NCBI GenBank assembly: GCA_020072565.1
Contig: JAIQGI010000047.1
Coordinates: 1 to 51,222 of the forward strand
Source: Terriglobia bacterium
GTDB lineage: Bacteria > Acidobacteriota > UBA6911
Length of the DNA: 51,222 bases
Reading direction: 5' to 3'
The notes under the pieces were generated by a model, which saw only the letters and a list, made by a program, of their open reading frames with translations, was not told where the DNA came from and ran no database searches. Both the position numbers and the translations under genes were made by a program. Positions 17,645 through 40,952 of this stretch are shown here, piece after piece. Positions within the stretch are counted from its first letter, which is position 1, and every line of letters begins with the position of its first letter.

Positions 17645-17694
17645 GAGGGGGTGCCGTCCCCATAAGTCTTTTTGAATCAACAGAGGCACCCCTC
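17645..17694. repeat. Hairpin inside the IS left end
   Basis: GAGGGGGTGCC (17645-17655) pairs with GGCACCCCTC (17685-17694) with one bulge, around a 29-base loop. Such subterminal hairpins in IS elements can block read-through transcription or hide the transposase start; this role is inference. Confidence 0.5.
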
Positions 17695-17767
17695 AAAACC
17701 CGCCAAAAGCGCGTGTAGTGAAGACCTACCCCCTTGCAGTGGCGATCTGTCTGTAGACAATAGCAGC

Positions 17768-25792: not shown

Positions 25793-27346
25793 ATGGCAGA
25801 TTCGCCCAACAATCTGCTCGCCGCCATCGACATCGGCGCCAGTTCCATCCGCATGGATGTTGCCGAGGTGACATCCGAAGGCAGGCTGCACATCCTCGAT
25901 GCGCTCAAGAAGGGGGTGCAACTCGGAAAGGACACATTCACGGATGGCTCTGTCGGCGAAGATTCAATCCGGGCTACCTGCGAGGCGTTGCGCGATTTCA
26001 AAAAGATAATGGACACGTACGGAGTAGTCCGGTACCGGGCCGTTGCCACGAGCGCCGTGCGCGAAGCTTACAACAGGGACACCTTTCTCGATCGTGTGCT
26101 TATGAGTACCGGCTTGGACATCGAGGTGATCGACGGATCGGAGGAGAACCGGCTCACATATACTGCGGTGCTGGAATCGCTGCGCGGCGGCCCCGATGTA
26201 AGCCAGGGGCAGACTCTCCTGGTGGAGGCGGGCGGCGGCAGCGCAGACGTGACGATGTTAACCAACGGCGAACTCCTGCAATCGGGAACCTTTCCCCTGG
26301 GATCGATCCGGTTGCGCGCCAGTGTCGGGGCTGCAGCCGGTTCCCACGCGCAGGAAATACGGCTGTTGAAAGCCCAGATTGCCAACATCGTAACCGGTAT
26401 CCGGCGCACCTTGCCGATTCAGCAAGCGGCGAACTACGTCGCGGTCGGCGGCGACGTGCGGCTGGCGGCGCGCATCGCCCTGGGCGTGAAACGTGACCAG
26501 GGCGCCCTGGAACTGCCCCGTGAGAAGTTTGGGGAGTTCGTCGACTCGGTCTCCAAGCTGACCATCGACCAGTTGGTGCGCAAATACTCTCTTTCCTACC
26601 TCGATGCGGAGACCCTGGTCCCGGCTTCGCTGACCTATCTGGCGCTGCTGATGGCGACATCGGCTCAAAGCGTGATCATCAGCGACGCCAGCATCCGGCT
26701 CGGGATTCTTCTCGACCTCATACCCACGGCGGAAAAAGACCGCCTGACCAATCTCAGCCACCAGATCCTCTCTGCGGCGCGCGGGCTGGGCCGTAAGTAT
26801 CAGTACGATGAAGGGCATGCCGATCGCGTCAAAGAGTTGGCTGAGCTTCTCTTTGAGAACCTCAGAGGCGAGCAGCACATGACCGAGACGCATCGCCTGT
26901 ATTTGCAGGTAGCCGCGCTCCTGCATGACATCGGGCTGTTCATCAGCTCGCGCAGTCACCACAAGCACTCCTACTACCTCATCTCTCAGTCGGATCTCTT
27001 CGGCCTGCGGCGCAAGGAACTGGAGATCATTGCGAACATAGCCCGCTATCATCGGCGCGCTTTGCCTCAGCAGAGTCATGCGCCATTCATGGCGCTGGAC
27101 CGTGACGAGCGCATGATTGTTTCCAAGCTGGGAGCCATCCTGAGAGTCGCCAACTCCCTGGACAAGGAGCACCGGCAGAAACTGGCGGATCTGAAGGTAA
27201 CGCGGGAAGGCGATCAACTGGTGCTGCTGGCCCGCACCATGTCGGATCTCACCATGGAGCGGCTGGCGCTGGCCAGCCGGAGCGATTTTTTCATCCAGGT
27301 CTTCGGCAGGAAGATCGTGCTGCGTGAAGGGTCGACCCATCCATGA
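25793..27346 (+). CDS. ppx: Exopolyphosphatase/pppGpp phosphohydrolase (Ppx/GppA)
   Basis: A 517-residue enzyme that shortens polyphosphate or removes a phosphate from pppGpp. The N-terminal actin-like fold shows the first phosphate loop D-I-G-A-S-S-I-R (residues 13-20), the R-A-V-A-T-S-A-V-R-E-A segment, the E-E-N-R-L-T catalytic Glu region and the second loop L-L-V-E-A-G-G-G-S-A-D. The canonical D-I-G-S-N-S is here D-I-G-A-S-S. From about residue 320 a C-terminal HD-type domain with L-L-H-D-I-G near 380 and H-H-K-H-S-Y-Y is present. The stop overlaps the ppk1 ATG by ATGA, so synthesis and breakdown are translationally coupled. Confidence 0.92.
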   Translation: MADSPNNLLAAIDIGASSIRMDVAEVTSEGRLHILDALKKGVQLGKDTFTDGSVGEDSIRATCEALRDFKKIMDTYGVVRYRAVATSAVREAYNRDTFLDRVLMSTGLDIEVIDGSEENRLTYTAVLESLRGGPDVSQGQTLLVEAGGGSADVTMLTNGELLQSGTFPLGSIRLRASVGAAAGSHAQEIRLLKAQIANIVTGIRRTLPIQQAANYVAVGGDVRLAARIALGVKRDQGALELPREKFGEFVDSVSKLTIDQLVRKYSLSYLDAETLVPASLTYLALLMATSAQSVIISDASIRLGILLDLIPTAEKDRLTNLSHQILSAARGLGRKYQYDEGHADRVKELAELLFENLRGEQHMTETHRLYLQVAALLHDIGLFISSRSHHKHSYYLISQSDLFGLRRKELEIIANIARYHRRALPQQSHAPFMALDRDERMIVSKLGAILRVANSLDKEHRQKLADLKVTREGDQLVLLARTMSDLTMERLALASRSDFFIQVFGRKIVLREGSTHP

Positions 27347-29457
27347 ACGGCGAGCCGCCGCACAAGTTTTTCAATCGGGAGCTGAGCTGGCTGGAGTTCA
27401 ATCGCCGGGTGCTCGAGGAAGCGCAGGATCCGCTGAATCCACTTCTTGAGCGCCTGCGTTTCTACTGCATTTTTCATTCCAACCTCGACGAGTTTTTCAT
27501 GGTGCGGGTTGCCTCCGTCCATCGCCTCATCGAGGAGGGAGACCACAACCCGGACCCGGCCGGGCTGACCCCGTACCAGCAGCTGGAGGCTGTGCTTGCG
27601 GCAGCGCGCGCATTTCAGGAGGAGAGTTCGCGCCTCTATCGGGAAGAGTTGCTGCCGGCATTGGCCCGCGAAGGGATTCAAATCCTGCCCACCGGCGGGC
27701 TGAGCCCGGCTCAGCACAAACATCTCGATTGGTACTTTGAAGGAGAGGTTTATCCGGTTTTGACTCCGATCGCGATCGCCGGAGCGGACCCATTTCCGCA
27801 CCTGCCGAACCTGGCATTGAATCTGGCGGTGCTGCTGCGCTCCGCCGGGCAGCCGGAATCCGAGCAGCGCCTGGCGATTGTCCAGGTGCCCGGCCGAATG
27901 CCTGGGCTTATCCGTCTTCCGGACGGCGATGCAATCCGCTTTTGCTGGTTGAGCGATGTCATCAAGGACCGGGTAGGGACTCTCTTTCTGGGTTACGAGA
28001 TTCTGGAGGCGGCGTGTTTTCGACTCACACGTGATGCGCAGTTCGAACTCGACGATGAAGGTTGGCACGACTACATGCGCATGCTCGAGTCCGAACTGCG
28101 CAAACGGCAGAGCGCGAGGCCGATGCGGCTGGAGTACGAGGAGAACATGAGCCCGGGCCTCCTGCTGCGCATCCGCCAGGGACTGGATGTCGACGAGACG
28201 ATGCTCATGCCCAGCCGCGGGGCGCTCGATCCGCGCCCCCTGCTGAGCCTGGCCGACATGCCGGGTTACGAGAGGCTGCACTACCGGCCGCAACCGCCAT
28301 TGGCGCCCGTGGCCCTGGCGGTGGAGCGCGGCATCTTCGACATCCTCCGTGATCGCGACATCCTGCTTCACCATCCCTATGACTCCTTCGATCCTGTGAT
28401 CGAATTCCTGCAAGCCGCAGCCGAGGATCCCGACGTGCTCGCCGTCAAACAGACCCTATACCGCACGAGCGGAGCCGGGTCACCGGTTTTGACCGCTCTG
28501 ATCCGGGCCGCCGAGAGAGGAAAGGAAGTGACCGTACTCGTCGAACTGACCGCGCGCTTCGACGAGGAACGCAACATCGGCTGGGCGCGGGACCTGGAGC
28601 AGGCCGGAGCGCACGTCCTCTACGGACTCGCGGGGCTGAAAGCACATGCGAAAGTCGCGCTTATCGTGCGGCGCGAGCCGGAGGGAATCCGTCGCTACGT
28701 TCATCTCGGGACCGGGAACTATAATGAAAAAACTGCCCGGCTCTACACCGACTTTGGCCTGCTCACGGCGGCCGACGACATCGGCCGGGACGCATCGGGA
28801 TTCTTCAACGCAATCACCGGTTACTCCGAGCCCCCGATGTTCCACCACCTCACGATGGCTCCGATCGGCATGCGGGAATCGATTCTGACCCTGATCCGGA
28901 GGGAGGCGGATCGGGCCCGATCCGGGCAGAGGTCGGGGATTTTGGCGCAGATGAACTCGCTGGTGGACCAGGTGATAATCGAGGAGCTTTATGCCGCAAG
29001 CGCCGCCGGCGTCCCCATCAAGCTGAACGTGCGCGGCATCTGCTGTTTGCGGCCCGGCGTGCTCTCCTTGAGCGAAAACATACGCGTGGTCTCGATCGTC
29101 GACCGCTATCTCGAACACAGCCGAGCCTTCCTGTTCCGCAATGGCGGGGAGGCGGAAGTGTATGTCTCCAGCGCTGATTGGATGCCACGCAACCTGGACC
29201 GGCGTGTGGAACTGATGGTCCCTCTGCTTCAGGAGGCGACACGGGAACGCGCCATCCAGGCTCTCGAAGCCCAGTTTGCCGACAACCGGAAAGCCCGCCT
29301 GCTGCTGTCAGACGGTCGCTACGCCCGAATCACGCAGGGTGAGGCGGAACCGGTTCGTGCCCAGGAATACCTCTATCAGGTTCTATTGGAGGAACGCGAG
29401 CGGATTCGCTCGATCCCGCCGGTCCGCTTTGTTCCGCTCGAGAGGAAACAGCCGTGA
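27343..29457 (+). CDS. ppk1: Polyphosphate kinase 1
   Basis: A 704-residue enzyme that makes polyphosphate from ATP. The N-terminal N-R-E-L-S-W-L-E-F-N box starts at residue 11. The autophosphorylated histidine falls at His435 in L-K-A-H-A-K-V and the second conserved His at His592 in Y-L-E-H-S-R-A, the same numbers as in the Escherichia coli enzyme. H-L-G-T-G-N-Y-N-E-K-T-A-R and N-L-D-R-R-V-E-L-M-V-P confirm both PLD-like lobes. All key residues are intact. It is coupled to ppx by a 4-base overlap, and both may be read from the promoter at 25739. Confidence 0.98.
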   Translation: MNGEPPHKFFNRELSWLEFNRRVLEEAQDPLNPLLERLRFYCIFHSNLDEFFMVRVASVHRLIEEGDHNPDPAGLTPYQQLEAVLAAARAFQEESSRLYREELLPALAREGIQILPTGGLSPAQHKHLDWYFEGEVYPVLTPIAIAGADPFPHLPNLALNLAVLLRSAGQPESEQRLAIVQVPGRMPGLIRLPDGDAIRFCWLSDVIKDRVGTLFLGYEILEAACFRLTRDAQFELDDEGWHDYMRMLESELRKRQSARPMRLEYEENMSPGLLLRIRQGLDVDETMLMPSRGALDPRPLLSLADMPGYERLHYRPQPPLAPVALAVERGIFDILRDRDILLHHPYDSFDPVIEFLQAAAEDPDVLAVKQTLYRTSGAGSPVLTALIRAAERGKEVTVLVELTARFDEERNIGWARDLEQAGAHVLYGLAGLKAHAKVALIVRREPEGIRRYVHLGTGNYNEKTARLYTDFGLLTAADDIGRDASGFFNAITGYSEPPMFHHLTMAPIGMRESILTLIRREADRARSGQRSGILAQMNSLVDQVIIEELYAASAAGVPIKLNVRGICCLRPGVLSLSENIRVVSIVDRYLEHSRAFLFRNGGEAEVYVSSADWMPRNLDRRVELMVPLLQEATRERAIQALEAQFADNRKARLLLSDGRYARITQGEAEPVRAQEYLYQVLLEERERIRSIPPVRFVPLERKQP

Positions 29458-29487: not shown

Positions 29488-30261
29488 TCATTCGTCATTC
29501 AACTTGTCCAGGTAGCAGGCCAGGAAGCGGCTGAGGCTCGCGCGCGCCGCAGCGGACCGCTCGCGCCATTGACTGTAGCGGCGCAGCCAGCCGCCGGCGG
29601 CCAGGGTCCTTGCCGCGCGTCGAAGGGAGCCCGAGCCGGGGCTGTAGGAAAGGGAAGCGAGGAAGTCGTCATCGGCCGTATCGCTCACGGCGCGCACGCA
29701 ACTGAGCGGAATGCCCCGGGCCGAGGCGATCCGGGCCAGCGCGGCGGTCTCCATGTCGACGATCGCCGCGTGGAATCTTTGGAACAGAACCCGCTTGTGC
29801 TCCGGAGTGCCGATGATGCAGGGAGAGGTCAGAGTAGCGCCGCGGCGTACGGCCAGACCGGCGGCATGCGCCCGGGAGAGGAGTTGCTCCGCCCCGGCGA
29901 GCGGCCAGCCGCCCCCAAGACCAATCTGACCCAGAGGAACTCCCCGGGATTCCTCCGAGAGCATGTCGGCGCGATCCACTACAACCAGTTCCCCCTGCTT
30001 CAGTTCGGGGTCGAGCGCACCGGCGTAACCGGTAACCAATATCCGTGTAGGCTGCAGCCCGGCGAGGGCCCGCTCGAGCACAGAGGCCGAATGAACAGGC
30101 CCCACGCCGAGCTTGAGCAGATGCAGCGTCTCACCCGCACGCATCCCTGTCCAGAGGGGCACACCTGTAGTCCGGATCTTCGTCCTCCGGGTGCACAGCT
30201 TCAGTACGGTCTCCATTTCCTCTGACAGAGCCGTGGCGATCAGCAACATGAACCGAAGCAT
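29488..30261 (-). CDS. Nucleoside phosphorylase superfamily protein (HpnG/MTAN-like)
   Basis: 257 residues with the PNP/UDP phosphorylase fold: a Gly-rich loop G-V-G-P-V-H-S-A, T-G-Y-A-G-A-L-D near the middle, and V-D-M-E-T-A-A-L-A with the ribose-binding Glu. The C-terminal S-D-T-A-D-D-D carries the catalytic Asp. MTA/SAH nucleosidases and hopanoid-associated phosphorylases (HpnG) both look like this; the hopanoid-type cluster starts 5.2 kb away, which gives weak support to HpnG. The last codons (..K-L-N-D-E, stop) come from a CATTCGTCATTC interspersed-repeat word, so the native C-terminus may have been rewritten. Confidence 0.75.
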   Translation of the reverse strand: MLRFMLLIATALSEEMETVLKLCTRRTKIRTTGVPLWTGMRAGETLHLLKLGVGPVHSASVLERALAGLQPTRILVTGYAGALDPELKQGELVVVDRADMLSEESRGVPLGQIGLGGGWPLAGAEQLLSRAHAAGLAVRRGATLTSPCIIGTPEHKRVLFQRFHAAIVDMETAALARIASARGIPLSCVRAVSDTADDDFLASLSYSPGSGSLRRAARTLAAGGWLRRYSQWRERSAAARASLSRFLACYLDKLNDE

Positions 30262-30480: not shown

Positions 30481-31713
30481 ATGAGAAAAGTGTTGATTTT
30501 GCTGATCGTGGGTCTTCCGACTCTGGTGGTGGTGGCCGCGATTCTCTGGACAGCAGGAGCCTTCACTCGAGCCGAACCGGTCGATGTCGTCGAGGTCCAG
30601 CTCGCCGCGCTTCATCGCAGCATCACCACCAACGGCAAGATCGAGGCGGACAGGGTCACCGAGTTGAGAGCACCGCTGTCAGGGATCTGCCGCCGGACTG
30701 ACGTGCACGAAGGGGCGCCATTAAAGAAGGGGCAAGAAATCGTGCGCATCGAGGACCCATCGCTGCCCTCCCAGCAGGCCGTTGCCCAGGCTGAGCTCGA
30801 TGCGGCGCAACTGGATCTCCACGACGTCCAGCGCGGGCCGGCGCCTGAGGAGCTGAATCAGGCCGAGGCCGAGGCGACCCGTGCTCAGCTGGCACGCGAC
30901 AACGCGCGCAAGATCCTCCAGACCAATGAATGGCTGCTCGAACGCGAAGCCATCTCGCGCTATGAGGTGGAACAAAGCCGGCACGCCCTGGCCGAAGCCG
31001 AACAGGCGCTCAGGGCCGCCCAGATGCGGCAGGAAGACCTGAGAAAAAGGTACGGTGATCCGGACCGCCGTCGTGCTCAGTCCCGGGTCGAGGCTGCCCA
31101 GGCGCGCCTCCAGTATCTCAACCTGTCCAGGGAACGGCTGGTCGTCCGCGCCCCCGAAGATGGGACCTTGTTTCAGCTGAACATCAAGGATGGCGCCTAC
31201 CTCAACACGGGAGATGCGATCGGCCTGCTTGCCGATCTGACGCACTTGCGCCTAAGGGCCTATGTGGATGAACCCGACATCGGCCAGGTTGCGGTCGGAG
31301 AGAAGGTTTTGGTCCGCTGGGACGCTCATCCGCTGGAACAGTGGCAGGGACTGGTAATGCGATTGCCCGCGCAAGTGGTGGCGTTGGGCACTCGCTCCGT
31401 TGCCGAAGTGTTGTGCAGCATCGATAATGCCAAAGGCACGCTCATACCCAACATCAACGTCGACGTCGAGATCGAAGCGCCCAACGGGCCTGCGGTCACA
31501 TCACTCCCGCGTAGCGTCGTTTTCCCCGAAGGAGCAAAGGAGTTTGTCTGGACCATCGATGGGGGCAAAGCCGTGAAGCATTACGTCGAGACCGGGCGCA
31601 GCACCAACACCCGGATCGAGATCACCGGCGGTCTTTCTCCGGGTGAGAAAGTCATCGATCCGGGCGACATGCTGATCAGTGACAGCCTCAAGGTGACGGC
31701 CAAAACAAGATGA
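30481..31713 (+). CDS. Periplasmic adaptor (HlyD/MacA-type membrane fusion protein)
   Basis: 410 residues: one N-terminal transmembrane helix (residues 4-27), the first half of a lipoyl/barrel-sandwich domain (T-N-G-K-I-E-A-D..L-R-A-P-L-S-G-I), a long alpha-helical hairpin (about 95-220, A-Q-A-E-L-D-A-A-Q), the second lipoyl half (V-V-R-A-P-E-D-G), and a beta-barrel with V-G-E-K-V-L-V-R-W. It should bridge an inner-membrane transporter and a TolC-like channel, both encoded in this operon. Its stop overlaps the next ATG by ATGA. The adaptor resembles MacA more than RND partners. Confidence 0.9.
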   Translation: MRKVLILLIVGLPTLVVVAAILWTAGAFTRAEPVDVVEVQLAALHRSITTNGKIEADRVTELRAPLSGICRRTDVHEGAPLKKGQEIVRIEDPSLPSQQAVAQAELDAAQLDLHDVQRGPAPEELNQAEAEATRAQLARDNARKILQTNEWLLEREAISRYEVEQSRHALAEAEQALRAAQMRQEDLRKRYGDPDRRRAQSRVEAAQARLQYLNLSRERLVVRAPEDGTLFQLNIKDGAYLNTGDAIGLLADLTHLRLRAYVDEPDIGQVAVGEKVLVRWDAHPLEQWQGLVMRLPAQVVALGTRSVAEVLCSIDNAKGTLIPNINVDVEIEAPNGPAVTSLPRSVVFPEGAKEFVWTIDGGKAVKHYVETGRSTNTRIEITGGLSPGEKVIDPGDMLISDSLKVTAKTR

Positions 31714-32666
31714 AAGCTGCGATCCTGCTCGGCCTGCTGATGCTGCTGCCCCTGCGCGGCGACGTTCAGGGTGTCGACGCCGCCAGAGAACTGTATGAGC
31801 GCGGCAAGTTTCAAGGTGCGGCGGATCTTCTGTCCAGCTTGATCCGGCAGAGTCCCAAAGATGTCGATCTGCGCATCTGGTATGGCAAGACCTGCCTGAA
31901 GTTGCGGCGCTGGGACTTAGCTGTGCAGGAATTTGACAGGGCAGTCGAGCTCGATCCCCAAAAAGGCCAGAATCATCTCTGGCTCGCCCGCGCCTATGGT
32001 AACAAAGCGCAACACTCCTGGCTCAGTGCGATCCCATCGGCGGGGAAGGCGCGGAAGGAGTTTGAAACCGCCGCGCAGTTGTCCCCGGCCAACGTGGATA
32101 TCCGTTTCGACCTGCTCGAATTCTATGCCCAGGCTCCCGGCTTCCTTGGGGGCGGCAGGGAAAAGGCGGCGGCTCAAGCCGAGGCAATTGCCAGACTGTC
32201 ACCGCGGCTCGGCTATACGGCGCGCGCCGAGATCTACCAGAACGACAAGGAATGGGATCGGGCGCGCCAGGAACTGATCCAGGCGACTCTGAAGTTTCCG
32301 AACGATGCCGGCGGGCACGCGGATCTGGCCGGGTTTCTGCTGCAGCGCCGCGATTATGAAGGCGCCGAGGCGAGTGCGCAAAAAGCGCTCGCCTTGGATG
32401 GATCGCTGCGCGGGGCCCGGCTGATCCTTGCTGCGGCGCAGGTCGCCCTTCATCGAAACGTTCCCGGCGCCCTGCAGGTATTGCAGGAACTTGCCGCGGG
32501 GCCGCTGACTGAAAATGATCCTTCCTTCGAAGAAGTCAACTATTGGCTCGGGCAGGCGTACCTGGCGCAGGGTCAGAAGGCGGAGGCACGCCAGGCGTTC
32601 CAGACCTCTCTCGGTTTTGATCCGGATTATTCAAGATCCAAGGACGCCCTGGCGCAGATCCGGTAA
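31710..32666 (+). CDS. TPR-repeat periplasmic protein
   Basis: 318 residues with a short signal peptide (L-L-G-L-L-M-L-L-P-L-R-G-D). At least six tetratricopeptide units follow, with the usual W/Y-L/I/G-A-Y pattern: A-V-E-L-D-P-Q-K, A-A-Q-L-S-P-A-N, A-L-A-L-D-G-S and a final S-L-G-F-D-P-D-Y. TPR proteins are scaffolds. In this operon, between the adaptor (ATGA overlap) and the permease (82 bases downstream), it may hold the tripartite pump or present its cargo; that is inference. Confidence 0.85.
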   Translation: MKAAILLGLLMLLPLRGDVQGVDAARELYERGKFQGAADLLSSLIRQSPKDVDLRIWYGKTCLKLRRWDLAVQEFDRAVELDPQKGQNHLWLARAYGNKAQHSWLSAIPSAGKARKEFETAAQLSPANVDIRFDLLEFYAQAPGFLGGGREKAAAQAEAIARLSPRLGYTARAEIYQNDKEWDRARQELIQATLKFPNDAGGHADLAGFLLQRRDYEGAEASAQKALALDGSLRGARLILAAAQVALHRNVPGALQVLQELAAGPLTENDPSFEEVNYWLGQAYLAQGQKAEARQAFQTSLGFDPDYSRSKDALAQIR

Positions 32667-32748
32667 TCCCATGCGTTGTTGCGGCCAAGCAGCGCACGAA
32701 ACACACGAAAAACTTGGCGTGGTTACGATGTGGGTGTAAGGTCCGATT

Positions 32749-33945
32749 ATGAACGTGGTCGAATCCGCAAGCGTTGCTTACGAGAGCCTGCTTGCCAACA
32801 AGCTGCGCGCGGGCCTCACTATGCTCGGGATGACCATCGGCACTGCATCCATCATCCTGGTGGTGACGATCGCCCTGACTTCCAAGGAATATATTCTGCA
32901 GCAGATCCAGGGCGTCGGCTCCAACCTGATCTATCTCTACTATGAAGCCGGCAATACGGTTTCCGGCACCAAAAGCCGTGCGGACGATCTGACCCTGGGG
33001 GACCTCAACGCAGTCCAACTACTCCCCGGCGTTGCTGATGCCACGGGTATCGTCGTCAAATATGACCGCCTGTCCCTGCGCGGGAGAGAGAGGGAGATCA
33101 CGGTCATCGGCACGACGCCGGATTACTTGAGGGTGAGGAATCTCCGCATTCTCGCGGGGAGGTTCTTCGACGACTCTGACGAGAGATCCTTCAACAAAGT
33201 TTGTCTGCTCACGGAAGATCTTGCGGTACGGCTTTTCGGCACTCTGGACGTGCGCGGCAAAAGCATCCGGCTGTTCCATGTCAGGTTCGAGACGATTGGC
33301 GTTTTCAGGGAAGGCGTCGAGACTTTCGGAACCTCCGAGGTCTCGACGTACTCGGCCCTGATCCCGATCCCCATCATGCAGCAGTTCGACAACAACGACA
33401 AACTGGACCAGATTTATGCTTCAGCCCGGCGCACCGAATCGGTTCCGTCGGTAACCCGGCGGATTCAGCAGTTGGTGGAATCACGGCACCGCGCGGGCAC
33501 TTCCTACCGCGTCGAGAATCTGGCCGAGATCCTGCGCGCGGCCGGACGCATCGCGACGGCCATAACCATCGTTCTCTTCCTGATCGGCACCATTTCTCTG
33601 GTGATCAGCGGCATCGGCATCATGAACATCATGCTGGTATCGGTGACGGAACGGACGAAAGAAATCGGCGTCAGGATGGCGGTAGGCGCCAGGCGTCGCG
33701 AGATCCTCTATCAATTTCTGGCCGAGTCCACTTATATGGCCAGCATCGGGGGGGGCTTGGGCATTCTGCTCGGCGTCTCCGGGCCGCTGCTTGCCAATTG
33801 GTTCACGGGCTTCAACATCCCCATTTCGTGGATCTCGATAGTGCTGGCCTTTCTGCTCTCCTTCACCGTCGGCATAACTTCCGGACTCATTCCGGCCAAT
33901 CGTGCTGCAAAACTGGATCCTACGGAGGCGCTGCGCTATGAATAA
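32749..33945 (+). CDS. FtsX/MacB-type ABC transporter permease (no ATPase domain)
   Basis: 398 residues matching the permease half of MacB/LolC-like type VII ABC transporters. One N-terminal helix follows L-R-A-G-L-T-M-L-G-M-T-I-G, then a large MacB-PCD periplasmic domain (about 45-270), and three C-terminal helices with I-G-I-M-N-I-M-L-V-S-V-T-E-R-T-K-E-I-G-V-R-M-A-V-G-A-R. The tail N-R-A-A-K-L-D-P-T-E-A-L-R-Y-E is typical. No Walker motifs are present and no ATPase gene lies in the locus. An 8-base overlap couples it to the TolC-like gene. AAGG is its only ribosome signal. Confidence 0.92.
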   Translation: MNVVESASVAYESLLANKLRAGLTMLGMTIGTASIILVVTIALTSKEYILQQIQGVGSNLIYLYYEAGNTVSGTKSRADDLTLGDLNAVQLLPGVADATGIVVKYDRLSLRGREREITVIGTTPDYLRVRNLRILAGRFFDDSDERSFNKVCLLTEDLAVRLFGTLDVRGKSIRLFHVRFETIGVFREGVETFGTSEVSTYSALIPIPIMQQFDNNDKLDQIYASARRTESVPSVTRRIQQLVESRHRAGTSYRVENLAEILRAAGRIATAITIVLFLIGTISLVISGIGIMNIMLVSVTERTKEIGVRMAVGARRREILYQFLAESTYMASIGGGLGILLGVSGPLLANWFTGFNIPISWISIVLAFLLSFTVGITSGLIPANRAAKLDPTEALRYE

Positions 33946-35254
33946 ATTTTCAGGACTTCTCATCTCGCTGCTGGCAATTTGCGCCTCGGCTTCGGCTTCG
34001 GAATATGTGGGGCAGGAGGCTGCCAAGGCCGGGCGTACACTCACGCTGCGCGAGGCTGTTCGTCTGGCATTGGCGCGCGGGCCGGAAGTATATCTGGCGC
34101 AGGCGGAGGCGGCCAGGGCGGGAGAAGCGCTCCGTGAGACACGATCCCTGAACCTGCCACAAATCGTGACCGGCACCGGCCTCGCTTACAATACCGGTTT
34201 TCCTCTCAGCATAGAGGGTTCGGCGCCCTCGATCATCCAACTGGGAGCGAGCCAGTCGGTTCTCAGCAAGAAAAACAAGAATCTCGTTCGGGAGGCTGAG
34301 CAGGGGAACATAGCGAGCCAGGCGGGCCCGGATGGCGCGCGCAACGGACTGGTGGCCAGGACGATCCTGCTCTACAGCGAACTCCACCAGGCACGGCTGG
34401 CTATTCCTCTATTGGAACAACAGCGCGGGACTGCGTTAAAAAGCCGGCAGATCACCGAGGCGCTGTTGCAGGCCGGGAAGGCTCGCCCAGTCGATCTTAC
34501 TCTGGCGAAAATTGCGGCCGCGAGTCTCGAGCAGCAGCTGCTCGTCATGCAGGAACGAGTGCGCCTGGCCGAGGCCGGCCTGCGGGAGCTCACCGGGATT
34601 CCCGAGAACGAAGCGATCCGGACGGAGACACCTGAGATCAAGAGCGAGCTGCTGACACTTTCACCGGACCTCCTCTATCAGAGAGCTCTGGAAATCCACC
34701 CTGAGATCCGGGAGGCCGAAGCCACCCTGCGTGCGAAGGAATTCCATGTCGAGGTTGAGAGGGCCGAGCGCTATCCGCAGCTTACACTCGTCAGCCAATA
34801 CGCGCTCTTCAGCCGGGCAAACAATTATCAGGACTATTTCAACCGCTTCACGAGAAACAACTACATTCTGGGCCTTTCGATTCAAGTGCCGTTGTTCAAC
34901 GGATTCCGCACCGAGGCACGCATAGCGCAGAGCCGCCAGGATGTCGAAGTGGCCCGCCTCCGGCTGCAGCGCCTGAAGTCCGATCTGAAGCTGAGCCTGG
35001 AACGGAGCGCGAGCGATCTGCGCATTGCGAGTGGCGCAGCCGAGCTGGCGCACCTCGAAGTGGCTGCTTACGAAGAGAAGCTCAAGGTCAGCGAGACTTT
35101 AATGGAGGCGGGACGCATCGAGCCCGGAGCTCTGGACGCCGCCCGTGCCCAGCTCCTGGAAAAACTGGCTGCTGCGACAGAGGCCGAGAAAGCACTCCTC
35201 GAGCGGCAAGTGGCACTCCTGCAGGCTACGGGTTCCCTCGCCGCCCTCTTTTGA
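33938..35254 (+). CDS. TolC-family outer-membrane channel protein
   Basis: 438 residues, the normal OEP length. The signal peptide is at 1-22 (L-L-I-S-L-L-A-I-C-A-S-A-S-A-S). Two OEP repeats follow: T-L-R-E-A-V-R-L-A-L-A-R-G-P-E-V-Y and, from about residue 230, L-L-Y-Q-R-A-L-E-I-H-P-E-I-R-E-A-E. Long coiled-coil helices and the strand segment V-P-L-F-N-G-F-R-T-E-A-R-I-A form the trimeric beta-barrel. With the adaptor and permease it completes a three-part export route across both membranes. The start, ATG 33938, lies inside the permease stop (8-base overlap). Confidence 0.92.
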   Translation: MNKFSGLLISLLAICASASASEYVGQEAAKAGRTLTLREAVRLALARGPEVYLAQAEAARAGEALRETRSLNLPQIVTGTGLAYNTGFPLSIEGSAPSIIQLGASQSVLSKKNKNLVREAEQGNIASQAGPDGARNGLVARTILLYSELHQARLAIPLLEQQRGTALKSRQITEALLQAGKARPVDLTLAKIAAASLEQQLLVMQERVRLAEAGLRELTGIPENEAIRTETPEIKSELLTLSPDLLYQRALEIHPEIREAEATLRAKEFHVEVERAERYPQLTLVSQYALFSRANNYQDYFNRFTRNNYILGLSIQVPLFNGFRTEARIAQSRQDVEVARLRLQRLKSDLKLSLERSASDLRIASGAAELAHLEVAAYEEKLKVSETLMEAGRIEPGALDAARAQLLEKLAAATEAEKALLERQVALLQATGSLAALF

Positions 35255-35286: not shown

Positions 35287-35465
35287 ACTGGTTGGCGATT
35301 TGGGGGCTTCCGGGAAACCCAACCTCCGGCATCCGCGGTCGCGCCTGCGGCGCGGCAAAAGTTCCTGCACGCCGACCAGGACGGAACGGTCGGCGTCGGC
35401 CGGCGTTTTTCCGCGTCCAAAACTGCATTTCGGTCACACTTTCATGAATAATTCAGGGCTACCAT

Positions 35466-36329
35466 CTAGATGTGGAAGAATCGCATAGAGAGCGCTCTCA
35501 GTGCGATGGCGGTTTTTTCCGCAGCGGAGAGGCGGATGGCCGGGCCGAAGACGTCAAACCGGCGCTGGACGATCTTCCTGAGCAGGCGCTCGTATATCTG
35601 CATCATCGCCCACAGTGCCGGCCGGCTGGGGGCATGGACCAGGGGGAGCAGGGCGCGCGCCTGCGTGTAGTATTGCGAGGCCCGGTCGGTTTCAAAGGTC
35701 ATGAGTTCCTGGAAGCGCGCGTCGAAGACGCCACGCCGCAGGTCGTCAGGGGCGTAATGAAACCTCTCGAGGTCCTCTGCGGGAAGATAAATGCGGCCCA
35801 GGCCGGCGTCCTCCTTGATGTCGCGGAGAATGTTGGTGAGTTGGAACGCGATGCCGCAGTGCTCGGCGAGTTTTCTGGCGCGCTCCTCCGTGTAGCCGAA
35901 AATCTGCAGGCAGACCAGACCCACGGCGGATGCGACGTTGAAGCAGTACCGGTAAAGATCCGCAAAGGTTTCGTAGTGGCTGATGGTGAGATCCATCTCA
36001 GCGCCGTCGATGATCCAATGGAAATAGTCGGCGGGGATGGAATATCTCCGGACCGAGTCGTGGAAGGCAGGGAGAATCGGGGACCCGTCGAATTCCCCTT
36101 TCACCGCGGCGTTCAGTTGCGCGCGCCACATCTCCAGTGCCCTGCGCTTGTCGTCCAGGGCTCCTGATCCGTCGGAAATGTCGTCGCAGTAGCGCATAAA
36201 GGAGTAGACGGCGCAGAAGGCGCGCCTCTTCTCGGACGGGAGCACGGCGAAGGCGTAATAGAAGTTGCGCGCGCGACTGCGCGCGACCGCCTCGGCACTG
36301 CGATAGGATGCGGCAATCTCAGGATTCAA
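35466..36329 (-). CDS. hpnD: Squalene/phytoene synthase family, HpnD-like
   Basis: A head-to-head prenyltransferase of 287 residues from TTG 36329, which has GGAGG four bases upstream and matches the usual N-terminus. An in-frame GTG at 36422 would add 31 atypical residues. N-F-Y-Y-A-F is at 22-27. The two Asp-rich magnesium sites are D-D-I-S-D (49-53) and D-I-K-E-D (170-174). Q-L-T-N-I-L-R-D-I-K-E-D-A and R-I-Y-L-P-A-E-D-L are typical of HpnD presqualene-diphosphate synthase; phytoene synthase is the close alternative. It is the last gene of the isoprenoid-type minus-strand cluster. No hpnC, hpnE or shc gene is in the window. Confidence 0.85.
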   Translation of the reverse strand: MNPEIAASYRSAEAVARSRARNFYYAFAVLPSEKRRAFCAVYSFMRYCDDISDGSGALDDKRRALEMWRAQLNAAVKGEFDGSPILPAFHDSVRRYSIPADYFHWIIDGAEMDLTISHYETFADLYRYCFNVASAVGLVCLQIFGYTEERARKLAEHCGIAFQLTNILRDIKEDAGLGRIYLPAEDLERFHYAPDDLRRGVFDARFQELMTFETDRASQYYTQARALLPLVHAPSRPALWAMMQIYERLLRKIVQRRFDVFGPAIRLSAAEKTAIALRALSMRFFHI

Positions 36330-36472
36330 GCGGCCTCCGTCCCTGGGGTGCGGCAGCTTGCTGTGGTCGTTGCCAGGCGCGACAGCGGACAGGGACAGCC
36401 GGGCGCAAACACAATTGCGCACTGCGAGGCTTCCGCATCAACTTCGTTGCTGTCTGCACGAGGCATCAGCGT

Positions 36473-37534
36473 TCAGGGAATGATGGCGATCTTCAGGTCG
36501 CCGTTCCGGTTCAGGAGCCGTTCCAACACAGTGCCCAAAGATGCGAGACTCTCCTCGCCGGTGATGAGGGACGCGGCGCGCACCTGGCCCTGCCGAACGG
36601 TTTCCAGCGCTTCATGGATGTGACGCGGCGTGTGGTGAAAAGTCGCCTTGATCGTGATCTCCGAGTAATGAATGAGTGTGCTGTCGAGCGGGATGTGCGT
36701 GCCCGACGGACACCCGCCGAACAGGTTGATGGTACCCCCGCGGCGCACCATGCCCATGGCCTGCTGCCAGGTCTCTCTCGAGCCGACGGCCTCAATGACC
36801 ACATCCGCTCCGCGCCGGCCGTCTGTGAAGTTGCGCACCTGCTCGATCACGTTCGAGTGTGTGGAATCGACGACATAATCGGCGCCCATTCTGGCGGCGA
36901 GTGCGAGCTGATTGGGTCTCTTGCCTGCGGCGATCACGATTGCGCCGAGGTTTTTGAGCAGCTGCACGAACATGAGGCCGATGGGACCCATGCCGATGAT
37001 CACGACCATGTCGCCTTCGGCGATCCCGGTCTCTTCGATACCACGCAGAACGCATGCCAGCGGCTCCACCATCGCCGCTTCGCTGAAGCTGAGATTGTCA
37101 GGCAGGATCAACAGATTCTGGCGCACGATCCGTTCGGGAATCTTGATGAACTCGGCGTAAGCCCCGTTCAGGAACTGCAGATCCTGGCACAGGTTCGCCA
37201 GGTGTTTTCTGCAGAAGAAGCAGTTGTTGCAGGGAGCCGAGTTGGCCGCCACCACCCTCATGCCGGGAGTGAAGCTTTCAACCCCCGGTCCCACCTCCTC
37301 GACGACTCCAGCCAACTCATGGCCGAAAACCGACGGTGGCGCGATCATGCGCGCATGAAAGCCCTGGCGGTAGACCTTCAAATCCGTGCCGCAAGTCAGG
37401 GCGGCTCTGATTCTGACCAGGACCTCGCCGTGTGCGACACGAGGGATCGGGATCTGTTCTATGCGGACGTCCCGCTTCCCATACAGAACCGCCGCAGTCA
37501 TCTTCTCCCTAGTAACCTTGATCAGTTCTCTCAT
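36473..37534 (-). CDS. Zinc-dependent alcohol dehydrogenase (MDR family), second copy
   Basis: A 353-residue medium-chain dehydrogenase. Catalytic zinc ligands are Cys48 (T-C-G-T-D) and His72-Glu73 (G-H-E). The four-cysteine structural zinc loop is Cys102, 105, 108 and 116. The NAD(P) loop is I-G-M-G-P-I-G-L-M. The ATG overlaps the stop of the preceding dehydrogenase (ATGA), so both are made together. The two differ too much to be a recent duplication. Sorbitol/threonine-type dehydrogenases look similar; the position between hpnA-like and hpnD-like genes suggests work on a sugar or polyol side chain, which is inference. Confidence 0.88.
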   Translation of the reverse strand: MRELIKVTREKMTAAVLYGKRDVRIEQIPIPRVAHGEVLVRIRAALTCGTDLKVYRQGFHARMIAPPSVFGHELAGVVEEVGPGVESFTPGMRVVAANSAPCNNCFFCRKHLANLCQDLQFLNGAYAEFIKIPERIVRQNLLILPDNLSFSEAAMVEPLACVLRGIEETGIAEGDMVVIIGMGPIGLMFVQLLKNLGAIVIAAGKRPNQLALAARMGADYVVDSTHSNVIEQVRNFTDGRRGADVVIEAVGSRETWQQAMGMVRRGGTINLFGGCPSGTHIPLDSTLIHYSEITIKATFHHTPRHIHEALETVRQGQVRAASLITGEESLASLGTVLERLLNRNGDLKIAIIP

Positions 37535-38637
37535 GGCTGTACTATGACCTTTAGTGAGTCCTCTGACGGATGAGATGCAACGTGGATCGCCTCAGCGAAC
37601 CGCTCCAATGGCAGGCGGTGGCTGATGAGCCGCGCGACGTTGATCCTTCTGCTGAATATCAGGTCGGCGGCTTTCTCCTGCAACTCCACCGAGGAACTAT
37701 AGCTGCCGATCAACTGTTTTTCCTCCACGCAGATGCGCGATGCGTCGACGGGAATCATTTCACCCGGAACGGTATTGGCGAACAGCAGAATCCGCCCGCC
37801 CCTGCGCACCAGGCCCTGCGCGGCACTGATGGTCCGCGAATCTGCAGTCGCGATAATGGCCAGATCTGCCCCGCGGCCGTCGGTGAGTGCCGCAATGGCC
37901 GACCCGATGTCGTCATGCTTGGGATTCAAGGCCGACCGGGCACCCAGTTGCTTCGATATTTCGAGACGACTCTGAATGAAATCGAGCCCGATTACCTGGG
38001 CACCCTCGATCACAGACGCCTGCATCAAGAGGAGCCCCACAGGCCCCTGTCCGAAAATGACCACGACCTCTCCTGCCTCCAGCGCCGCGGTCTCCAGGGC
38101 TTTGAGGCAGGTATTGAGAGGCTCCAGGAAGCTGGCTTCCTCGAAGCCGACACCATTCGGCAGCGCGACCGTTCCTGCATCCACGATCCAATCCATAACC
38201 CGTACATATGCGGCGAATCCGCCGCCGGCAGGTTCGAAGCCGGCGGTCGTGCCGGTACGCCGGTAATGCTCACACTGCGAGAAGAATTTCTTCCGGCAAT
38301 AGAAGCAGTGCCGGCAGGGAACATGGTGATACACCGCCACACGATCCCCGGGCGCGAACCTGGTCATCCGCCTGCCCGCGCGGACGACCGTTCCGGCAAT
38401 CTCGTGGCCGAAGATCCTGGGCGGTTTCACCAGGCCCAATTCAATCTTCTTGAGATCCGTGCCGCAGACCCCGCACGAGTGAACGCGGACCAGCAGCTCC
38501 CGATCCGCGATCTGCGGCACCGGAACCGTCTCAAGCGTCATGCGATTCGCTCCGCGATAGACCGCCGCCCGCATCTCGGCCGGCACAGCCAGCTTGATCG
38601 GATCGGTCTCGCTAACAACAGCATTCAGTTTCCGCAT
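37531..38637 (-). CDS. Zinc-dependent alcohol dehydrogenase (MDR family), first copy
   Basis: 368 residues from ATG 38637 (GAGG about 9 bases upstream); the open frame runs on to 38820 but inside hpnA. Catalytic ligands are Cys58 (C-G-V-C-G-T-D) and His78-Glu79. The structural zinc cysteines are 108, 111, 114 and 122. The cofactor loop is I-F-G-Q-G-P-V-G-L-L. It sits 31 bases after the hpnA-like gene and overlaps the next dehydrogenase by 4 bases. The substrate is unknown; both enzymes keep all zinc ligands, so both should be active. Confidence 0.88.
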   Translation of the reverse strand: MRKLNAVVSETDPIKLAVPAEMRAAVYRGANRMTLETVPVPQIADRELLVRVHSCGVCGTDLKKIELGLVKPPRIFGHEIAGTVVRAGRRMTRFAPGDRVAVYHHVPCRHCFYCRKKFFSQCEHYRRTGTTAGFEPAGGGFAAYVRVMDWIVDAGTVALPNGVGFEEASFLEPLNTCLKALETAALEAGEVVVIFGQGPVGLLLMQASVIEGAQVIGLDFIQSRLEISKQLGARSALNPKHDDIGSAIAALTDGRGADLAIIATADSRTISAAQGLVRRGGRILLFANTVPGEMIPVDASRICVEEKQLIGSYSSSVELQEKAADLIFSRRINVARLISHRLPLERFAEAIHVASHPSEDSLKVIVQP

Positions 38638-38668
38638 CGAGTTCCAACCTCGGGTGCCTCGCCCGGAA

Positions 38669-39712
38669 TCATGCTGTCCCGGCGCGCAGGTTCGAGATGC
38701 GATCCTGTGCCGAACCCGGATGCCAGCCGTGACGGAAATATTCGACGGCTTTGCGCAGAGCCTGCTCGGCGGGCCTGGGATCGTAACCCAGTTCGCGGCG
38801 CGCCTTGTCGCTGCTGACATACATCTTGTACCGAGCCATCCTGACGCCGTCCAAAGGGATGGACGGTTCCCGGCGGAGGATGGTTCCCAGGAAAAACTGG
38901 TTCATATAGGCGGCGATTAAGGCCACCGTCCATGGCATCGGGAGCCTGGGCATGCGCCGGCCGCAGATGTGCGCGAGAGTCTGCAGGATCTCCCGAAGAC
39001 TCATGTTTTCTCCGCCCAATATGTACCTCTGTCCGATCCGCCCCTTGCGCTCGGCCAGGAGGTGACCCTGTGCCACATCTTCTACATCCACGATGTTCAG
39101 CCCGGTGTCCACATAAGCCGGCAAACGCCCACGCAGAAAATCGAGAATCACCTTTCCTGTCGGCGTCGGCTTGATATCTCCCGTGCCCACAGGTGTGGTT
39201 GGATTGACGATCACCACCGGGAGGCCTTCATGCGCGAACTCGTGCGCGACCTGTTCGGCCATGAATTTCGACCGTTTGTAGTGGCCGATCATGTCGTCAA
39301 GTGCTACGGGCGTGTCCTCGTCGGTAGGGACGCCATCCGCCCGCATGCCGATCGCCCCGACTGTGCTGGTGTAAATTACTTTCTCGACTCCAGCTTCACA
39401 ACAGGCCGACAACAGGTTCCTGGTCCCGGCTACGTTACTCTCATAAATCTCCTGAGGGTTTCGAGCCCAGAGACGATAGTCGGCCGCGATGTGATAAACC
39501 CAGCGACACCCCTGCACGCACCGCACCAGAGAACTTGCTTCCCTGAGGTCCCCCACAACGATTTCGCAGCCCAGCCCTTCGACGTTGTGCGCAGGACTCG
39601 ATTGGCGCGCGAGGATGTGCACGCGGTCTCCCCGCATGCGCAGCAGACGAACCACGTGGCTGCCGATGAATCCGGTCGCGCCGGTCACGAATGTGAAATC
39701 GTCGGGCATCAC
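38669..39712 (-). CDS. hpnA: HpnA-like NAD-dependent sugar epimerase/dehydratase
   Basis: 347 residues, the usual length of hopanoid-associated sugar epimerases. The Rossmann motif T-G-A-T-G-F-I-G is at 10-17, and the extended-SDR catalytic Y-x-x-x-K is Tyr145-Lys149 (H-Y-K-R-S-K-F). Characteristic HpnA phrases are A-A-D-Y-R-L-W-A-R-N-P, N-P-T-T-P-V-G-T-G-D-I-K-P-T-P-T-G, D-T-G-L-N-I-V-D-V-E-D-V-A-Q-G-H and I-L-G-G-E-N-M-S-L-R-E-I-L. In known clusters this enzyme is associated with hopanoid side-chain sugars. It begins 180 bases after ispH. Confidence 0.92.
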   Translation of the reverse strand: MMPDDFTFVTGATGFIGSHVVRLLRMRGDRVHILARQSSPAHNVEGLGCEIVVGDLREASSLVRCVQGCRWVYHIAADYRLWARNPQEIYESNVAGTRNLLSACCEAGVEKVIYTSTVGAIGMRADGVPTDEDTPVALDDMIGHYKRSKFMAEQVAHEFAHEGLPVVIVNPTTPVGTGDIKPTPTGKVILDFLRGRLPAYVDTGLNIVDVEDVAQGHLLAERKGRIGQRYILGGENMSLREILQTLAHICGRRMPRLPMPWTVALIAAYMNQFFLGTILRREPSIPLDGVRMARYKMYVSSDKARRELGYDPRPAEQALRKAVEYFRHGWHPGSAQDRISNLRAGTA

Positions 39713-39892: not shown

Positions 39893-40858
39893 TCATCCGG
39901 GCACCCTCTCCGGGCGTGCCAGCTCGGGCGGCAGTGCGAACTCCACATCTTCGCTGATACTGCCCACGATCTCGACCTCAGGGTAACCGACTGCGCTCAA
40001 ATAACGCAGCACTCTTTCGACGAGCCCTTCGGGCGCAGAGGCTCCCGCCGTCAGGCCGACGCTGCGAATTCCCGTGAGCCAGCCGGGCCGGATGCTTTCG
40101 ATATCGTCGATGAGATAAGCGGGCGCTCCCTGGCTCTGAGCTACTTCGACCAGGCGACGGGAGTTGGAGCTGTTGGCGGAACCCACAACCAGAATGACCT
40201 CCGCCTTCTTTGCCAACTCGAGCACAGCCGCCTGTCGGTTTTGGGTCGCATAGCAGATATCTTCGGATGACGGGCCGTGGATCTTGGGAAATCTGTGTCT
40301 CAGCCGCTCGATAATGTGCCTGGTGTCATCCAGGCTCAATGTGGTCTGGGTCAGGTAAGCCACCATGTCGGGGTCCGGCACCTCCAGGCTATCCACTTCC
40401 TCGGCAGAAGCGAGGACTCTGATGGAGCCCGGAGCTTCGCCGAGTGTGCCGATGACTTCATCATGATCCGCGTGGCCAATCAGGATAATGGTGTAGCCTT
40501 CACGGGCATATTTGATCGCTTCCAGGTGCACTTTGGTCACAAGCGGGCAGGTGGCGTCGATGACTTTCAGCTGGCGTCGCTGTGCCTCCGCTCTTACCTC
40601 GGGAGAGACCCCGTGGGCGCTGAAAATAACGCGGTTTCCGGGCGGAACCTCCTCGAGGTGATCTATGAAAATCGTACCCTTCTGCCTCAACTCGTTGACG
40701 ACATATTTGTTGTGGACTATCTCGCGTCTGACGTAAAGAGGCAGGCCGAAGCGTGCCAGGGCAAGGTTCACGATATCGATCGCCCTGACCACTCCCGCAC
40801 AAAATCCGCGCGGGAATGCCAGCAACACTTTTCCCTGCAGACCGTTACTCTCACTCAT
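39893..40858 (-). CDS. ispH: 4-hydroxy-3-methylbut-2-enyl diphosphate reductase
   Basis: The last enzyme of the MEP pathway, an iron-sulfur protein making isopentenyl and dimethylallyl diphosphate. 321 residues from ATG 40858 (ATG 40873 is the alternative). Cluster cysteines are Cys20 (R-G-F-C-A-G-V), Cys104 (D-A-T-C-P-L-V) and Cys202 (D-I-C-Y-A-T-Q-N-R). Also conserved are H-N-K-Y-V-V, A-H-G-V-S and S-A-N-S-S-N-S-R-R-L. It supplies the C5 units used downstream by the HpnD-like synthase and by uppS. Confidence 0.97.
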   Translation of the reverse strand: MSESNGLQGKVLLAFPRGFCAGVVRAIDIVNLALARFGLPLYVRREIVHNKYVVNELRQKGTIFIDHLEEVPPGNRVIFSAHGVSPEVRAEAQRRQLKVIDATCPLVTKVHLEAIKYAREGYTIILIGHADHDEVIGTLGEAPGSIRVLASAEEVDSLEVPDPDMVAYLTQTTLSLDDTRHIIERLRHRFPKIHGPSSEDICYATQNRQAAVLELAKKAEVILVVGSANSSNSRRLVEVAQSQGAPAYLIDDIESIRPGWLTGIRSVGLTAGASAPEGLVERVLRYLSAVGYPEVEIVGSISEDVEFALPPELARPERVPG

Positions 40859-40952
40859 GTCGCCCCAAATCATATTCTCAGGTTTTCGCTATGGCAAGGC
40901 CTTTTACCCTTACCCCGTGCCGTAGATGTCGGTCTTCAGGATTCTGCAATTT

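Follow-up and report, generated by a model that had tools for sequence, protein, structure and literature searches.

A four-gene export operon without an ATPase gene

The stretch examined here, referred to as the window, comprises 51,222 nucleotides of a Terriglobia bacterium (Acidobacteriota; assembly GCA_020072565.1, contig JAIQGI010000047.1), and its subject is an operon at positions 30,481 to 35,254 in which a periplasmic adaptor, a tetratricopeptide repeat (TPR) protein, a MacB/FtsX-type permease and a TolC-like outer membrane channel are encoded (Table 1). G, C and L numbers are our handles for genomes, contigs and loci, and f and g numbers those for families and genera; the genome of the window is G000 (7.46 Mb, 135 contigs), with the operon on contig C47. 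The nearest named relatives of the permease were found in Acidobacteria/Terriglobia. An earlier note on this DNA had described the genes as coupled by overlaps. Two of these overlaps are real, namely ATGA at the adaptor/TPR junction and 8 bases at the permease/channel junction; the third junction is a gap, with the TPR protein and permease genes 82 bp apart. In G107, all three junctions of the four-part module overlap (4, 4 and 8 bases). Plus-strand terminator-like sites were looked for inside the operon and none was found. The further claim that no nucleotide-binding protein is encoded held: the permease lacks a nucleotide-binding domain (NBD), scoring against reference ATPases called no ATP-binding cassette (ABC) ATPase in the window, and a PF00005 search of G000 returned no place on contig C47 (150 of 180 candidates scored).

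Relatives were found to share the four-part set together with its lack of an ATPase. The same four genes, without an ATPase, are present in G001 (permease 70% identical), and the four-gene order of the window recurs without an ATPase in three gp2 Acidobacteria (L031, L032 and L034) and in G107. The module is split in genus g4 and in G004 into an adaptor-permease pair and a TPR-channel pair, with the permease at some places lacking a called adaptor, and in family f17 mostly into adaptor-TPR-channel and a lone permease. Any ATPase gene of this operon type lying adjacent in relatives, which according to the earlier note would indicate a mere loss here, was sought in the available flanks of 36 window-lineage permeases from 35 genomes (G012 has two), and a MacB/LolD-class ATPase was found beside none of them; for 24 of the permeases the flanks extend at least 3 kb on both sides, and for the other 12 one or both flanks are shorter than 3 kb. 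The tally includes L379 and L382 (36-38% identity), which stand outside the permease tree, and leaves out the truncated permease of G037 and a broken second adaptor-permease copy in G014. The latter (C53, L172 6725-9097) has two stop codons within the permease match. In the permease tree the window lineage forms one group of 19 rows (support 100/100), and we consider the absence of the ATPase almost certainly ancestral in this lineage. The ATPase labels of this tally and the hopanoid labels of the locus counts below are phmmer scores against sequences from this analysis, some of them from module loci themselves.

Two candidates for a hidden partner were rejected. More distant ABC ATPases lie 3-7 kb from the permease in L031, L032 and L034 (89-120 bits to reference ATPases); the divergent one about 3 kb upstream scored 89-94 bits, compared with at least 192 bits, on another scale, for the LolD-class ATPases of G000, and in L031 it adjoins a protein matching NF041647 slightly under the cut-off. 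In G004, G005 and G008, the permease is followed by a gene of 245-248 aa that, by reading alone, is taken to encode a DPM1-like glycosyltransferase. Nor is an ATPase gene lost from this one assembly more than a very remote prospect: although the genome is fragmented, over 15 kb of contig lies to either side of the operon, and G001, G107 and the three gp2 genomes, whose gene order is the same without an ATPase, argue against such a loss.

The condition is not confined to this operon. At least 150 MacB_PCD stretches were detected in G000 (150 of 211 candidates scored) versus 12 LolD-class ATPases of at least 192 bits, and five other loci of the genome (C1:167k, C12, C25, C30 and C46) carry MacB-like permeases without an adjacent LolD-class ATPase. 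For another acidobacterium, 102 orphan permeases are described (PMC10564751). Both in this genome and in the phylum, then, a MacB-like permease often has no ATPase next to it, and the absence alone is less unusual than the earlier note held.

Table 1. Features of the operon and its surroundings in the window
Feature	Position	Strand	Details
Periplasmic adaptor (membrane fusion protein)	30481..31713	+	410 aa; HlyD_D23 67 bits; RND_mfp 145 bits, above cut-off of 94.9
TPR protein	31710..32666	+	318 aa; TPR_19 90 bits
MacB/FtsX-type permease without NBD	32749..33945	+	398 aa; MacB_PCD 121 bits, FtsX 67 bits
CH1 coupling loop, main NBD contact in MacB	33622..33720	+	permease residues 292-324
CH2 coupling helix	33892..33942	+	permease residues 382-398
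TolC-like outer membrane channel (OMF)	33938..35254	+	OEP 125 bits; TIGR01844 95 bits, below cut-off of 225
Two overlapping terminator-like sites 3' of channel	35387..35404	+	consensus match only; 7 sites in region versus 3.9 expected
Nucleosidase-like gene upstream of operon	29488..30261	-	weakly HpnG-like, 72 bits versus cut-off of 187
HpnD-like presqualene diphosphate synthase	35466..36422	-	TIGR03465 266.5 bits, slightly under cut-off of 278.6
Two zinc alcohol dehydrogenase-like genes	36473-37534 and 37531-38820	-	under all family cut-offs
HpnA, hopanoid-associated sugar epimerase	38669..39712	-	TIGR03466 480 bits, above cut-off of 368
IspH, isoprenoid precursor synthesis	39893..40873	-	above cut-offs

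Fold and coupling helices of the permease

Pfam, PDB sequence matches and Foldseek all described the window permease as an FtsX-type protein of four transmembrane (TM) segments with the periplasmic core domain of MacB. The PDB matches included MacB (5nik, 5gko and 5lil) and a permease with a separate NBD (5xu1). Against the MacB model of 648 residues, the match spanned residues 256-646 and left out the N-terminal NBD. When compared by Foldseek, the permease model (pLDDT 78.5, pTM 0.55) matched 5nik_J with a TM score of 0.73. The parts of MacB that contact the NBD are CH1 and CH2, for which the positions were taken from PMC8277102. Among 34 permeases of the window lineage, mean pairwise identity was 0.68 for CH1 and 0.70 for CH2, whereas the periplasmic domain reached 0.40 and the TM segments 0.45-0.65; in the alignment with the 5nik MacB chain, 26 of the 33 CH1 residues of the window permease are identical. 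Conservation is thus highest in CH1 and CH2, and from its sequence the permease still appears to be coupled to ATP.

Candidate ATPases encoded elsewhere in the genome

The genome was searched for an orphan MacB/LolD-type ATPase, as the earlier note had proposed, and three ATPases without a permease called beside them were identified, on contigs C1, C4 and C17. The first, a MacB-type ATPase here termed ATPx (C1 142535-143260), follows an adaptor gene, ADPx (141027-142505); among PDB entries, ATPx matched the separate ATPase of 5xu1 best. In all 20 genomes covered (15 of the window's family and the five of L031-L034 and L047), the ADPx-ATPx pair was present and no permease was called within about 1.5 kb of it. 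Tandem permeases directly follow the pair in G087, G141, G098 and G088, and in G125 they follow after one intervening 237-aa gene; this arrangement accounts for 5 of 16 fetched places in the phylum and for 4 of 30 places in shorter loci. In the tree, the permeases beside ATPx and the detached tandem pairs of G000 and G007 fall into one group (24 rows, 100/98). Because the detached pairs group with the ATPx-adjoining permeases, one ATPx probably serves several detached permeases in the window's family. At L288 and L298, four genes for MacB-like permeases come after the pair and form two heteropairs in the tree.

The inventory of G007 can be set beside this. At E<=1e-50, three LolD-class ATPases were detected in G007: one is Lol-like, another is ATPx and the third has a permease of its own; the permease neighbouring the Lol-like ATPase is hidden by shadow open reading frames (ORFs) and was deduced from the like locus of G000 and G012. 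This genome has 8 MacB-like permeases at five loci, and the nearest LolD-class ATPase is ATPx, 14 kb from one pair. Across the sample, an ATPx-like match was detected in 22 of 23 genomes with a window-type permease (E<=1e-80) and, at E<=1e-75, in all 13 of a further set, which makes 35 of 36.

A partner other than ATPx was also considered, namely the C4 pair, the solitary C17 ATPase or LolD itself. The C4 type is a second adaptor plus ATPase pair without a called permease, present in G000 (L196 4671-6826) and in G021 (L406 4720-7098), with 291 bits between the two adaptors and 367 bits between the two ATPases; in G000 the gene after it, on the other strand, encodes a large outer membrane beta-barrel/TonB-type protein. 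The C17 ATPase (L184 6118-6783) is of the LolD class, and another LolD-class locus, on C20, has two permeases. The lack of a permease beside the C4 and C17 ATPases, and the recurrence of the C4 pair in G021, would suit such a partner; however, G007, which bears the module, has no ATPase of the C4 type among its three of the LolD class, and we judge this alternative unlikely. Overall, a shared ATPase recruited from elsewhere, one of the two options raised in the earlier note, emerged as the better supported and now has a concrete candidate. Whether that ATPase is ATPx is, on the present comparisons, an evenly balanced question.

The TPR protein, adaptor and channel as members of the module

The earlier note had viewed the TPR protein as a novel component and had suggested its co-occurrence as a check, which spoke for the idea. 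In the window's family (E<=1e-75), the TPR protein and a window-type permease were both present in 13 of 15 genomes and both absent from the other 2. Among 159 genomes of the phylum, 21 had both, two had the permease only (G021 and G140) and three had the TPR protein only (G045, G055 and G084), with cut-offs of E<=1e-66 and 1e-22 and with counts that kinship makes less independent than they appear. In 11 of 13 family genomes the TPR and channel genes are immediate neighbours, the permease stands between the two in G000 and G001, and in G014 the ORF call of the channel overruns the TPR gene. In the loci from the phylum search, the TPR gene is beside the adaptor gene in 11 of 15. On account of this co-occurrence and its place in the operon, the TPR protein is very likely a true component of the system.

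The N-terminus of the TPR protein is hydrophobic and, by eye, resembles a signal peptide, so the protein is probably periplasmic. Its AlphaFold2 model is a TPR superhelix (pLDDT 90), for which the matches listed by Foldseek and VIA-align were general TPR superhelices, with no specific relative among them. The adaptors are also distinct: 29 module adaptors, labelled as such by score, form one tree group (support 96/99) apart from 29 other adaptors.

Hopanoid genes around the module

After the operon, on the opposite strand, the window carries an HpnD-like gene, two alcohol dehydrogenases, HpnA and IspH. The earlier note had missed this context, which is a more interesting finding than the absence of the ATPase. 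Hopanoids are bacterial lipids that resemble sterols. The two alcohol dehydrogenase-like genes may be compared with 'ug2' of the acidobacterial hopanoid clusters described in PMC5462960. By score, at least one of HpnA, HpnD, HpnI, HpnJ or the cyclase was detected at 18 of 31 module loci (0.57 Mb) versus 0 of 81 control loci (0.99 Mb), where the controls partly overlap each other and include L172, and where loci with the permease only or the TPR protein only stand outside the 31. Once the five loci that supplied reference sequences were removed, hopanoid genes remained at 13 of 26 module loci. Their frequency differs among families, with 2 of 12 module loci in family f1, and 16 of 19 versus 0 of 27 controls outside it.

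In G107, a single strand bears (i) HpnA (partial), an HpnG-like gene, a 369-aa gene, an alcohol dehydrogenase, HpnC, an HpnD-like gene, HpnE and a polysaccharide deacetylase; followed by (ii) the adaptor, TPR protein, permease, channel, HpnJ, a 183-aa gene and HpnI. Adaptor, permease, channel and squalene-hopene cyclase are consecutive in G043, HpnJ adjoins the channel in G132, G086 and G165, HpnA, IspH and an HpnD-like ORF lie near the TPR-channel pair of G004, and a PLP enzyme, HpnJ and HpnI are found further along from the module in L031. The module of G001 is without hopanoid genes, on a contig that ends 152 bases after the channel.

Sugar transferases were also noted. Eight loci (L155, L156, L157, L158; L302, L305, L047, L386) have, next to the window-type permease, a gene for a DPM1-like glycosyltransferase (by reading) or for a sugar transferase of PMT_2 type, and small EamA-like proteins, the one of L031 slightly under the cut-off, come after HpnJ in L031 and L421. 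These neighbours look like a periplasmic sugar decoration of a lipid.

Such genes bear on the alternative that the permease, with its ATPase in trans, handles a cargo other than a hopanoid, i.e., a glycolipid, a lipoprotein or a small toxic compound as in other MacB/Lol systems, with the hopanoid context as an inherited neighbourhood. This would agree with the DPM1-like neighbours in G004, G005, G008 and G012, named by reading, with the PMT_2 sugar transferases in G086, G132 and L047, and with the 13 of 31 module loci that have no hopanoid gene. It accords poorly with a hopanoid association that recurs inside and outside the family with differing partners (HpnD-like/HpnA, HpnJ/HpnI and squalene-hopene cyclase) and is absent from all 81 controls, and it seems to us improbable, if far from negligible. 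There is, in our estimation, slightly more for than against a hopanoid or a hopanoid precursor as the cargo of the module.

Other neighbours in the window and its relatives were recorded. The nucleosidase-like gene upstream of the operon scores higher as an MTA/SAH nucleosidase and as a futalosine hydrolase than as HpnG, all below cut-off. Two coupled genes at 25793-29457 are, by reading, a PPX/GppA-type phosphatase and a polyphosphate kinase, and G001 (L154) has a pair of similar length (521 and 703 aa) upstream of its operon. A 628-aa ORF at 17672-19558 resembles a transposase by reading alone. Downstream of the TPR-channel pair of G005 (L168 13045-15097), a MamK family actin-like protein, exceeding the cut-off, is encoded beside an amidase-like gene. 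ORF calling was simple, and some called ORFs are shadow frames in GC-rich DNA.

A proposed lipid transporter energised in trans

We tentatively interpret the operon as a MacB-type tripartite transporter with its ATPase in trans, most likely for a lipid (hopanoid). In the proposed mechanism, the permease dimer would bind two copies of a LolD/MacB-type ATPase made elsewhere, for which ATPx would be the best candidate. Binding of ATP would close the stalk helices and move the periplasmic domains, by mechanotransmission as in MacB/Lol, and the permease would transport no substrate through the inner membrane. Hopanoids, whose head groups may be polar or sugars, would instead be taken up on the periplasmic side; the TPR protein would guide or carry them, and they would pass via the adaptor and channel to the outer membrane.

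Several observations weigh against this interpretation. With respect to the permease, CH1 identity is 0.68 in the window lineage versus 0.75 and 0.82 in two ATPase-linked groups, although the periplasmic domain is more alike in the lineage (0.40) than in those groups (0.34 and 0.31) and the rest of the permease is overall at least as conserved. Compared with the ATPase-linked set, CH1 of the lineage has an identity of 0.62, versus 0.71 for other ATPase-less permeases. Some relaxation of CH1, or a changed partner, is possible on these figures. With respect to the ATPase, no ATPx match was obtained at E<=1e-80 in G107, which has the clearest hopanoid operon; this genome has six LolD-class ATPases, none of which stands out clearly as an orphan, with neighbours identified for all but L399 and L402. 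An ATPx-like match is present in 136 of 159 sampled genomes (E<=1e-80), so its co-occurrence with the permease is weak evidence; the same cut-off is also passed by an ATPase of 60% identity with a permease of its own, and the ATPx-like match of G043 holds a stop codon. The tandem permeases, 14-25 kb from ATPx in G000, G007 and G011, may also be the only ones that ATPx serves. With respect to the cargo, the module has no hopanoid genes nearby in nine g4 genomes, G074, G079 and G097, none of the permease-only loci (as in family f17) or TPR-only loci has a hopanoid gene by score, and the controls are unmatched by family, with 54 of 81 from family f1. A gene neighbourhood does not prove a cargo.

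Some of these observations relate to the other principle of operation that the earlier note had entertained, here taken to be that the permease no longer uses ATP and, placed between adaptor and channel, serves passively as a scaffold or sensor. This would be in keeping with the lack of a LolD/MacB-class ATPase gene beside any of the 36 permeases, with the lack of an obvious free ATPase partner in G107 and with the slightly lower conservation of CH1 relative to ATPase-linked permeases. Both NBD-coupling helices nonetheless remain the most conserved segments of the protein, and a passive role is the less likely of the two options, with little in its favour by our reckoning. It is likely that the window-type permease is energised by an ATPase in trans, although, because CH1 is kept less strictly, we set this estimate, and that for the interpretation as a whole, a little lower than we otherwise would have.

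A fuller version of the transporter interpretation can be formulated as a dedicated acidobacterial hopanoid transporter built on the MacB/FtsX rather than the RND fold, with a periplasmic TPR lipid carrier and with ATPx as one widely conserved, shared ATPase powering several operons of ATPase-less permeases in trans; this version is conceivable but doubtful. A literature search revealed, among the matches listed, no paper on how ATPase-less MacB-like permeases are energised, and the operon provides a small, testable case of this question, for which a candidate ATPase can be named. Should the hopanoid link be true, the operon would also identify a missing hopanoid exporter of a large soil phylum.

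Comparison with known systems

The window permease was not assignable to two related families. It scored 141.3 bits against the ADOP profile TIGR03434 (cut-off 622.3), with only profile positions 511-803 matched, and 49 bits against the LolC/E profile TIGR02212 (cut-off 362). The likeness to ADOP, the acidobacterial (duplicated) orphan permeases, lies in the 'orphan' part of the name, i.e., a MacB-like permease without an adjacent ATPase; ADOP are duplicated and of about 800 aa, whereas the window permease is single, of 398 aa, and has its own adaptor, TPR protein and channel. In split MacB-type systems the NBD genes generally adjoin the permease genes, whereas no NBD gene was found at the window-type locus in any relative examined. 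Spr0694-0695 (5xu1), YknYZ, LolCDE and FtsEX are similar in that permease and NBD are separate polypeptides, an arrangement described for YknYZ and presented as normal in the superfamily for FtsEX and LolCDE (PMC8277102).

Among the matches listed in the literature search, which reached few subscription journals, no title referred to a MacB-type hopanoid transporter. HpnN would resemble the proposed system in its cargo; it is proton-driven and differs in fold, being RND/MMPL in HpnN and MacB/FtsX in the window permease. It is described as a hopanoid transporter of the RND family (PMC10942540, PMC8277102); the main text of a survey of hopanoid genes in Acidobacteria (PMC5462960) contains no mention of a transporter, efflux, a permease, HpnN or the outer membrane. 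BstABC of Methylococcus is described as a lipid transport set beside sterol synthesis genes, of which BstC binds sterols and has a TPR-like substructure. The set offers a precedent for lipid transport genes placed next to triterpenoid genes and for a lipid-binding part of TPR-like build, but BstA is an RND protein; BstC was absent from the matches listed by Foldseek and VIA-align for the TPR model, which did not involve a direct comparison with BstC.

MacAB-TolC, an exporter of compounds such as macrolides and peptides, is alike in its adaptor, its channel and its 4-TM MacB/FtsX permease with a periplasmic core domain, and CH1 and CH2 are kept; the adaptor and TolC-like channel partners of MacB are both present at the window locus. 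The operon is unlike MacAB-TolC in that it has neither the fused N-terminal NBD nor an ATPase gene, contains an additional TPR protein and lies in a hopanoid gene context. Taken together, the operon represents a conserved variant of the MacB-type tripartite transporter, with its ATPase probably supplied in trans and with hopanoids as its probable cargo in at least part of the phylum.

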